Made by a program: the position numbers and the translations under genes. Of a stretch of 64,000 bases of DNA, positions 1 to 524 are shown piece by piece. Positions within the stretch are counted from its first letter, which is position 1; every line of letters starts with the position of its first letter. The DNA is from Prosthecobacter gellanilyticus (GTDB lineage: Bacteria; Verrucomicrobiota; Verrucomicrobiia; Verrucomicrobiales; Verrucomicrobiaceae): the NCBI RefSeq assembly GCF_007992435.1, contig NZ_BKAG01000017.1, forward strand, positions 1 to 64,000, in the 5' to 3' direction. The notes under the pieces were generated by a model. The model saw nothing but the letters and a program-made list of their open reading frames with translations, searched no databases and was not told the origin of the DNA.

Positions 1-25
1 ATGCGGGATTATGAGCCTGACGAGC
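1..25 (-). repeat. tRNA-fMet anticodon/D-arm fragment at window edge
   Basis: Positions 9-25 are identical to the anticodon and D-arm part of the intact initiator tRNA at 448-524. The preceding bases (1-8) match the altered sequence after the anticodon in the second fragment (358-365). The fragment supplies the last codons and the TAA stop of the GIY-YIG gene at 9-275. It probably continues off the left edge as another tRNA 3' part; that continuation cannot be seen. Confidence 0.6.
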
Positions 26-275
26 GGTTTTGTCGGATGAGGCCTGTCAGGCGGTAAAATCCATCGCCGCCTTTCTGAGCTTTGAGAAGGTTCTCCACTT
101 TTCGGGCATCGGTCAGGCTCATGGGAGCGCTGGTCCAAACCAATTTCCACGGCCCACGATGTCGCGTCCACGTGGAGACGCCCGAGTTGTGATCTACAAG
201 CCTCCTCTCAACATCATCCGATAGGCCGATGTAAAAGCGGCCTCCATCATTCTGAATGACATAGACGAAATACAT
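9..275 (-). CDS. GIY-YIG nuclease family protein next to tRNA-fMet
   Basis: A small single-domain GIY-YIG protein of 88 residues. The GIY-YIG core is clear: MYFVYVIQN at the start, then FYIGLSDDVERRL with the catalytic-type Arg, and a downstream E-x-x-L-K helix (VENLLKAQ). The frame is open back to position 359, but those extra 28 codons translate the hairpin and a tRNA 3' fragment, so the Met at 273-275 is the likely start. The last residues (RSSGS) and the stop are encoded by a tRNA-like anticodon arm. Proteins of this family cut DNA in homing enzymes and repair nucleases; the free-standing small type is of unknown role. It sits directly downstream of tRNA-fMet in a tandem array, which suggests a mobile or tRNA-targeting habit (inference). 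Confidence 0.85.
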   Translation of the reverse strand: MYFVYVIQNDGGRFYIGLSDDVERRLVDHNSGVSTWTRHRGPWKLVWTSAPMSLTDARKVENLLKAQKGGDGFYRLTGLIRQNRSSGS

Positions 276-290
276 GAACCTAGAAATGGC

Positions 291-318
291 GAAGGCCGTG
301 CATTGCTGCACGGCCTTC
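291..318 (-). terminator. Perfect hairpin after tRNA fragment (copy 2)
   Basis: A 12-bp perfect inverted repeat (GAAGGCCGTGCA and its complement) around a 4-nt loop, 3 nt after the CCA of the tRNA fragment on the minus strand. It is identical to the hairpin at 417-444. There is no T-run, so it may be a 3' processing or stabilising structure, or part of the repeated module, and not a standard terminator. Confidence 0.6.
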
Positions 319-321
319 ATT

Positions 322-382
322 TGGTAGCGGGGACAGGATTTGAACCTGTGATCCCGCATGCGGGATTATGCGCCTGATGAGC
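322..382 (-). pseudogene. Partial tRNA-fMet copy (3' part)
   Basis: On the minus strand this reads as the 3' half of tRNA-fMet: a D-arm end, a CAT anticodon, then an exact T-arm, acceptor 3' strand and CCA. The 5' acceptor strand is absent, so it cannot fold as a full tRNA. The 3' side of the anticodon stem is replaced by a 16-bp perfect palindrome (ATCCCGCATGCGGGAT, 351-366). It overlaps the collapsed GIY-YIG remnant at 366-401. Confidence 0.8.
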
Positions 383-401
383 GGACGTAGACAAAATACA
401 C
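366..401 (-). pseudogene. Internally deleted GIY-YIG gene remnant
   Basis: Twelve codons, GTG to TAA, encode VYFVYV followed by RSSGA. The first six codons match the start of the intact gene at 9-275 and the last ones match its end (RSSGS), so the body of the gene has been lost. The remaining coding differences are mostly synonymous, which indicates that this copy diverged as a gene before the deletion. Confidence 0.75.
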
Positions 402-416
402 GAAACTATAAATGGC

Positions 417-444
417 GAAGGCCGTGCATTGCTGCACGGCCTTC
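417..444 (-). terminator. Hairpin directly downstream of tRNA-fMet
   Basis: A perfect 12-bp stem (GAAGGCCGTGCA and complement) with a 4-nt loop starts 3 nt after the tRNA CCA end on the minus strand. The position fits a tRNA terminator, but no T-tract follows. An identical copy at 291-318 follows the tRNA fragment. Confidence 0.6.
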
Positions 445-447
445 ATT

Positions 448-524
448 TGGTAGCGGGGACAGGATTTGAACCTGTGACCTTCAGGTTATGAGCCTGACGA
501 GCTACCGGGCTGCTCCACCCCGCG
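448..524 (-). tRNA. Initiator tRNA-fMet (CAT)
   Basis: A 77-nt cloverleaf including an encoded CCA. The anticodon is CAT within CTCATAA. Initiator features are present: an unpaired C1 opposite U72 at the top of the acceptor stem and a GGG/CCC-rich acceptor stem typical of bacterial tRNA-fMet. This is the only complete tRNA found in the window. It is followed on the same strand by the GIY-YIG/tRNA-fragment array. Confidence 0.95.

Follow-up and report, generated by a model that had tools for sequence, protein, structure and literature searches.

A GIY-YIG nuclease cassette at the initiator tRNA gene of Prosthecobacter gellanilyticus, a candidate minimal homing element

The first 524 positions of a 64,000-nucleotide stretch of Prosthecobacter gellanilyticus DNA (contig NZ_BKAG01000017.1, positions 1 to 64,000; the window) contain a module in which pieces of the initiator transfer RNA gene (tRNA-fMet), terminator-like hairpins and genes of a small GIY-YIG nuclease are interleaved. 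With moderate confidence we regard this module as a minimal homing-endonuclease element of tRNA genes, which would bring a new tRNA 3' end and push the native end downstream. The reading builds on the conserved anatomy of the module, on empty and decayed sites in related genomes, on purifying selection acting on the nuclease and on the clustering of the nucleases by tRNA isotype. The homing-endonuclease element as such is known; the replacement of a tRNA 3' half, the hairpin-bearing pseudo-tRNA and the isotype-clustered nuclease lineages appear to be new. The original prediction of a GIY-YIG module that carries its own tRNA 3' end and preserves the tRNA is thus sustained by the conserved anatomy and by the empty and decayed sites of relatives, and the mobility that it implied stays presumptive.

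Anatomy of the module and its nuclease

The structural composition of the locus is summarized in Table 1. Read on the minus strand, tRNA-fMet is followed by a terminator-like hairpin, a GIY-YIG remnant, a tRNA piece, an identical hairpin, the intact GIY-YIG gene and a further tRNA piece, and the coordinates confirm the order of parts predicted earlier. The proximal gene at 448..524 represents the sole full-length tRNA-fMet match of the 7.65-Mb genome (G000; E up to 1e-12). The tRNA 3' end TCACAGG...CCA is present twice (322-351 and 448-477), and the module copies of the window agree at 89 of 94 bases. The second tRNA copy was described in advance as a 3' part with CCA; the 3' end proved correct, but the copy is not simply truncated, as about positions 39-46 are swapped for the palindrome at 352-365.

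Table 1. Features of the tRNA-fMet locus at the left end of the window
Feature	Position	Strand	Remarks
Intact initiator tRNA, proximal copy	448..524	-	tRNA-Met (CAT) with CCA; ARAGORN; Rfam tRNA 63 bits
Terminator-like hairpin 3' of the intact tRNA	417..444	-	12-bp arms, 28 nt
GIY-YIG remnant	384..401	-	six initial codons of second copy, fused onto next tRNA piece
tRNA-derived GCTCATCAGGCGCATAA	366..382	-	tRNA positions ~22-38; precedes the palindrome
Palindrome TCCCGCATGCGGGA	352..365	-	in place of anticodon-stem 3' strand and variable loop
3' part of first pseudo-tRNA	322..351	-	T-arm, acceptor 3' strand and CCA; same sequence as intact tRNA
Second terminator-like hairpin	291..318	-	28 nt; identical to 417..444
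Intact GIY-YIG nuclease gene	9..275	-	88 aa; last codons and stop (TCA TAA) inside next tRNA piece
Start of next pseudo-tRNA	1..25	-	GCTCGTCAGGCTCATAA and half of the palindrome

The hairpin substitution recurs in the pseudo-tRNAs of related loci, which continue after ...GGCTCATAA (tRNA position 38) with TCCCGC-n-GCGGGA where the intact tRNA has CCTGAAGG, followed by TC, T-arm, acceptor strand and CCA. The stem TCCCGC with a loop of 0-9 nt is found in 41 of the 44 distinct fMet-type pieces, a count biased towards the motif by a search pattern that demanded a stem of at least 5 bp beginning with TCC. Among pieces chosen by T-arm and acceptor only, those with a weak T-arm match being left out, a stem of at least 6 bp is present in 35 of 38, compared with 15 of 38 for the same interval of intact tRNAs. 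The signature CTCATAATCCCGC-n-GCGGGATC has 17 matches in 14 of the 387 genomes of the phylum and none in the reversed control, thereby excluding a chance origin; the piece in the window is one base off the exact signature, and its other copy is interrupted where the contig ends. In the window, and likewise at L007-L012, six family loci whose reading frame is intact, the tRNA piece provides the stop codon of the nuclease gene (TAA of CATAA). Pairing with the acceptor stem as the cause of the hairpin sequence is a weakened explanation, given that loci with the acceptor CCCTGC retain TCCCGC/GCGGGA (wobble pairing is still possible). The T-loop of some pseudo-tRNAs is also swapped for a hairpin (L085, L104/L122, L117, L255).

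The fragments resemble their own locus. Their T-stem equals that of the resident fMet 3' half in 30 of 39 cases, the resident being the first fMet 3' half of the locus and in a few loci a 5'-truncated copy, and matches across loci amount to 8.7% of 1464 pairs (17 different T-stems). This agreement requires a host origin of the fragments, inheritance within lineages or gene conversion.

The open reading frame (ORF) of the window belongs to the GIY-YIG superfamily according to its domain, catalytic pattern and fold. It matches PF01541 (E=1.2e-10; 42 bits versus a cut-off of 22.6; residues 29-96 of a 116-amino-acid frame), and across 30 sequences Y15, R25 and E61 are invariant and Y5 is retained in at least 90%, a Tyr/Tyr/Arg/Glu set that we take to be the catalytic pattern of the superfamily. 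The predicted model (predicted local distance difference test, pLDDT, 90) retrieves UPF0213 and Slx1 in Foldseek (E 2e-4 to 6e-3; template modelling score to the query 0.45-0.61). The nearest solved sequences and folds are single-domain UPF0213/GIY-YIG proteins (1zg2, the nearest sequence, E 5e-8; 1ywl), both listed as hypothetical proteins, and Slx1 (6seh); PHROGs gave weak matches to phage homing endonuclease families (E 0.006). The 116-amino-acid frame (9-359) is a read-through of the tRNA 3' end and the hairpin, with 28 residues derived from tRNA and terminator. Such tRNA-derived open frames also precede the nuclease gene in L007, L011 and L012, and N-terminal frames of this kind may mislead annotation.

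Judged from substitution rates, the nuclease is under purifying selection, with a ratio of nonsynonymous to synonymous rates (dN/dS) of 0.07-0.21 in 11 of 15 pairs, which include diverged intact copies of single arrays, and saturated dS in the other 4. Three intact copies in one array (L081) and two in another (L088) have a DNA identity of 75-83% and a dS of 0.5-1.5. Because these copies are diverged yet intact, repeated arrival or long persistence fits better than recent duplication. The repeated insertion proposed earlier is compatible with such arrays, and the movement behind it is presumed.

The window is the left end of its contig (C17), and the right end of another contig (C62) terminates in the next tRNA piece and terminator, beyond which a polyprenyl synthetase gene (PF00348) is located. 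The two contigs presumably join at the palindrome ATCCCGCATGCGGGAT, so that the remainder of the pseudo-tRNA starting at 1..25 would continue at the end of C62. This junction is supported by relatives that share the polyprenyl synthetase gene behind the tRNA-fMet locus: it is found there in G036 and, judged by the start of the reading frame, in G031, G015, G039 and G040. The leftward continuation of modules asked for by the original prediction ends at the contig edge in the window itself; with the piece on C62, tRNA-fMet and the polyprenyl synthetase gene are probably separated by two or more inserted units. A sulfatase gene is situated on the opposite side of tRNA-fMet. Contigs also end inside modules at G014:C26, as at window position 1 and the right end of G000:C62. 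Arrays in draft genomes are probably under-counted because palindromes and tandem repeats would be expected to break contigs within modules.

Empty, filled and decayed sites

Homologues with at least 57% identity are present in 8 of 68 family genomes (G000, G018, G039, G040, G060, G061, G064 and G067), and in seven of them the homologue resides behind tRNA-fMet. In the eighth, G064, the intact nuclease copy follows an fMet copy truncated at its 5' side, with about 75 kb between this copy and the complete tRNA-fMet gene. Thirty fMet loci of the family, the best 30 among 61 genomes with a match, were surveyed: seven carry module and fragment (decayed in G039), three have a scar fragment only, 18 have neither and two end too soon; the 18 include G064, whose module lies behind an island, and G031, of which 193 nt are visible. 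The contig of G014 breaks within the start of the nuclease gene.

Empty, filled and decayed versions of the same site, the comparison that had been suggested for relatives, were thus all found: the site is empty in G036 and G031, filled in G040 and others, and scarred in G015, G046 and G054. The empty site of G036 aligns with the distal tRNA 3' copy of the filled G040, with its terminator (including a shared GCGCGG variant) and with the downstream gene and flank. The extra DNA of G040 consists of a tRNA 3' half, a terminator, the ORF and CGCTCGTCAGGCTCATAA. This alignment suggests that the unit was inserted between the tRNA halves and replaced the 3' half. The corresponding order, with the incoming 3' end at the host gene, the nuclease ORF and the displaced native 3' end downstream, was found at the module loci.

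Attachment to tRNA-fMet and to other isotypes

Scanning 84,980 species with one genome each revealed 34 loci, which belong to Verrucomicrobiota, Kiritimatiellota, Lentisphaerota or unplaced bacteria. All 34 contain tRNA-fMet or fMet pieces. A tRNA-Met adjoins the ORF in 25 of them (23 upstream, 2 downstream), and the remaining nine exhibit 5'-truncated or N-interrupted fMet, or fMet pieces. A common occurrence of the gene away from tRNA genes, which the original prediction regarded as incompatible with it, is therefore not seen; the rare exceptions are a truncated orphan copy in G064 and the divergent nuclease L125, which lacks a tRNA piece. A profile search retrieved relatives in 26 of the 387 phylum genomes (E up to 1e-12), the weaker ones being of the kind associated with other tRNAs. 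Second, distant GIY-YIG ORFs (31-35% identity to the query) lie beside the same tRNA-fMet at L104 262-507 and L112 1947-2201 (reverse-oriented).

The initiator tRNA, named as target in the original prediction, is one of several: more distant nucleases immediately follow tRNA-Pro, Thr, Asn, Asp, Ser, Ala, Arg, Cys and others. A same-strand tRNA is located at most 600 nt upstream of 93 of 159 distinct ORFs, a set seeded with tRNA-linked genes and reduced from 230 matches by dropping repeated views of one locus, partial array copies included. For a less biased subset of 67 ORFs, which leaves out six A2 seed loci and three fMet loci, the tRNA is at most 300 nt upstream in 39 and just downstream in four more. 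If a genome of 4 Mb is assumed to have 50 tRNA genes, simple arithmetic rather than simulation predicts a same-strand tRNA at most 300 nt upstream for about 0.2% of genes. Among the 90 tRNA-linked genes that could be tested (three of the 93 had too little sequence), 53 have a partial copy of their own tRNA behind them, called when it outscored the highest of 50 shuffles by a margin; the numbers are 32 of 39 for Met-labelled genes and 21 of 51 for other isotypes. No downstream copy was detected for Leu (0 of 4), Val (0 of 4) or Ala-CGC (0 of 5), nor for the five Ser genes tested in the family to which the window belongs. Cases of Pro, Thr, Ala, Arg and Asn have a hairpin instead of the anticodon arm, e.g. 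TCCCGAC-gga-GTCGGGA, and the stem in distant families often reads (T/C)CCCG...CGGG(A/G); three Ser pieces are without a hairpin in the stem test on pieces selected by T-arm and acceptor.

The nuclease phylogeny is based on 149 sequences and 88 columns, ten of the 159 proteins with fewer than 65 amino acids being left out, and many forks are unresolved because of the small number of columns. One branch of 49 rows (Shimodaira-Hasegawa-like approximate likelihood ratio test, SH-aLRT, 94) unites 44 of the 50 Met-labelled nucleases, some of them labelled by the fMet signature where ARAGORN found no tRNA, with five unlabelled ones: three with fMet pieces (L009, L079, L080), the degraded L123 with apparent remains of a tRNA end, and the divergent L125. 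The Thr branch has a support of 99 and a pair of Asn nucleases 98, two other Asn rows standing apart. Isotype labels require 40 changes on the tree compared with a shuffled mean of 83, and none of 200 shuffles was as low. As far as these sequences indicate, nuclease clades largely follow the tRNA isotype.

Plasmid matches of the distant kind are absent, and four viral contigs carry it, one of them tRNA-linked. On the IMG/VR contig L255 (1889-2400) a GIY-YIG ORF is divergent from tRNA-Ala and followed by two hairpin-bearing tRNA-Ala 3' pieces, an arrangement of the same kind except that the intact tRNA is inverted.

Homing and its alternatives

We infer the cutting, the movement and the role of the hairpin as follows. 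The small GIY-YIG enzyme would cut an element-free tRNA gene around the region from the anticodon to the T-arm, and host recombination would mend the break using the element-carrying copy. The cassette, composed of a tRNA 3' half, the terminator, the nuclease ORF and a short bit of the tRNA 5' part, would thus be placed between the tRNA halves. The resident 5' half would join the incoming 3' half, so that a functional tRNA is kept, and the native 3' half with its terminator would be displaced downstream as a pseudo-tRNA with a hairpin at the anticodon region, which may block cutting of the displaced copy. Tandem arrays, clean losses and scars could then arise as cassettes enter repeatedly and the tRNA 3' repeats recombine with each other, and the nuclease lineages would remain largely bound to one tRNA isotype.

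Homing is favoured because the anatomy equals that of fungal mobile ORFs and because SegB provides a GIY-YIG precedent at tRNA genes. According to the available excerpts of the two reports, mobile ORFs of fungal mitochondria (Allomyces atp6; Glomus atp6/atp9/cox2/nad3) combine an endonuclease ORF with a 3' end that substitutes for that of the host gene, and leave the native end downstream (PMC3630166), and SegB of phages T4/T6 is a free-standing GIY-YIG homing endonuclease that cuts in tRNA genes and occurs in tandem tRNA-segB units (PMC13096335). As far as these excerpts go, the module shares with the fungal ORFs an endonuclease ORF with a substitute 3' end and the native end downstream; it differs in its location at a bacterial tRNA gene rather than at mitochondrial protein genes, in the hairpin substitution of the displaced end, in its tandem arrays and in an incoming 3' end that usually equals the displaced one. 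Like SegB, as described there, the nuclease of the window is free-standing, tRNA-linked and part of tandem tRNA-nuclease units, but SegB resides in a multi-tRNA cluster of a phage, and its excerpt mentions neither a tRNA 3'-half cassette nor a hairpin substitution. For SegB of T6 the same excerpt gives the motif RAWTSGAAC and a microhomology between the tRNA 5' end and the segB 3' end (PMC13096335); in our reading, the reverse complement of this motif would resemble the tRNA T-loop. No bacterial tRNA-GIY-YIG module was present among the literature matches listed, judged by title and start of abstract, with preprints and most subscription papers outside the scope.

Several observations weigh against homing. 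The intact tRNA-fMet is 100% identical between filled (G000, G018, G039, G040) and empty genomes (e.g. G036, G031), so a protected allele of the target is not apparent, and simple cutting of the tRNA gene would therefore lack a self-protection step. The question of how carriers survive despite an intact target is thereby raised; a target that spans the tRNA end and its flank, inefficient cleavage of the donor allele, as stated in the SegB excerpt for free-standing GIY-YIG enzymes (PMC13096335), or tight control could account for it. The assignment of proximal and distal ends rests on one terminator base by which the distal end is closer to the empty relative, in the single pair G040 versus G036, and the T-stems of fragment and resident differ in 9 of 39 cases. 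The reversed loci L082, L086, L144 and L153, in which a hairpin-bearing tRNA 5' part lies upstream of the intact tRNA-fMet (with a nuclease ORF in between in L082 and L086, and as two tandem hairpin pieces without ORF in L144), go beyond one simple insertion. The orphan copy of G064 (C160:215074) lacks any fMet piece in the adjoining 1.5 kb to its left and right, 28 of the 67 less biased ORFs have no upstream tRNA within 300 nt, and 37 of the 90 tRNA-linked genes have no detectable downstream copy. Six Met-labelled nucleases, including the second ORFs of L104 and L112, fall outside the fMet branch, and a branch with a support of 96 mixes Pro, Ala and Arg. A vehicle for the fMet kind was not found: viral contigs contain no close homologue, and phage and plasmid collections yielded only one phage and six plasmid records with 34-40% identity, the phage match (37.5% identity over 72% of the window protein) stemming from an unannotated uncultured phage. 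Finally, vertical descent with loss fits the family trees too.

That last point leads to an explanation without movement, which we consider possible though improbable: an old tandem duplication of the tRNA with the nuclease in between, inherited vertically, would expand and shrink through recombination at the tRNA 3' repeats, an amplification that the nuclease would promote in a SegB-like manner. The SegB precedent, the patchy presence with scars and the tandem units of G067, identical at 356 of 356 bases, agree with it, and so does the approximately unbiased test, which does not reject family f1 as one clade (p-AU 0.129; L123 and L125 left out) and thus leaves horizontal transfer within the family unsupported; clustering of the nucleases by order did not discriminate. 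The copies of L081 and L088, intact under purifying selection at a dS of 0.5-1.5, are however no recent duplicates, the similar design at several isotypes would require repeated origin or retargeting, and the nuclease clades cluster by isotype.

Genomic islands with tyrosine recombinases integrate into tRNA genes and restore the tRNA with the 3' end that they bring along, while a 3' copy stays behind. The module might be a satellite of such an island, with the tRNA 3' pieces as attachment sites, the island integrase acting in trans and the nuclease as cargo. In G064 an island uses the same tRNA-fMet gene: a Phage_integrase gene (L230 1302-2561; above the Pfam cut-off) lies behind it, and the module is about 75 kb away from the tRNA. 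An integrase-like gene below the Pfam cut-off (L232 4302-5606) is located beside a second fMet piece in G012, and 5'-truncated fMet copies next to modules (L078, L092, L093, L102, L117) resemble island ends. Yet those copies retain CCTGAAGG whereas the module pieces have the hairpin, the modules adjoin full-length tRNA-fMet without an intervening island, and between the tRNA repeats of the module, which measures about 356 bp, the nuclease ORF stands alone without a recombinase gene, so that we give this origin little credence. Equally far-fetched in our view is an RNA-level module, in which tRNA would be the substrate of the nuclease and the messenger RNA would end in the pseudo-tRNA as a decoy, antidote or processing signal. 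The RNA of the pseudo-tRNA can alternatively fold as a CCA-ended minihelix of acceptor and T-arm (z -2.4 to -4.2, terminator excluded), which together with the frequent hairpin stem of at least 6 bp (35 of 38 pieces) and the ORF stop codon within the tRNA piece is in line with such a function; on the other side, tRNA 5' parts and other arrangements exist, PADLOC returned only a weak match (PDC-S14, 18 bits), and GIY-YIG enzymes whose activity is established are, to our knowledge, nucleases of DNA. A group I intron was rejected, the tRNA being uninterrupted and no Rfam intron family matching window positions 1-1000 at E up to 1; sub-threshold Rfam matches to isrJ and Leu_leader were taken as chance hairpin matches.

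If homing holds true, essential single-copy tRNA genes of bacteria host elements of about 350 bp without recombinase, intron or intein, and a strategy of fungal mitochondrial protein genes extends to tRNA genes. Related nucleases with probably different tRNA targets would allow the study of GIY-YIG site choice, and predicted GIY-YIG proteins with translated-tRNA N-termini, as in the window, would be explained. More speculatively, and in our estimation rather unlikely, the modules could represent a large undescribed class of one-gene GIY-YIG cassettes, each lineage specialized for one or few isotypes, that swap the tRNA 3' half and close off the displaced one by a CCCG...CGGG palindrome; dispersed palindromes, as in G192 (138) and G067 (109), may then mark old cut or insertion sites.

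The hairpin does not hold up everywhere as a part exclusive to the element. Among 12 relatives examined, TCCCGC-n-GCGGGA is dispersed chromosome-wide in G192 (138 versus 1 in the control) and G067 (109 versus 13), and remains at about control level in G221 (22 versus 28) and G018 (16 versus 11). Twenty-one palindrome contexts read in G192 fall into several larger repeat families; the pseudo-tRNA of this genome has the same palindrome TCCCGCATGCGGGA as the window. P. gellanilyticus itself has two places with an exact ATCCCGC-n-GCGGGAT, and the only other exact ATCCCGCATGCGGGAT of its genome (G000:C14:151012-151027; L136) is located among short repeats with TTGA on either side, as if it had been inserted.
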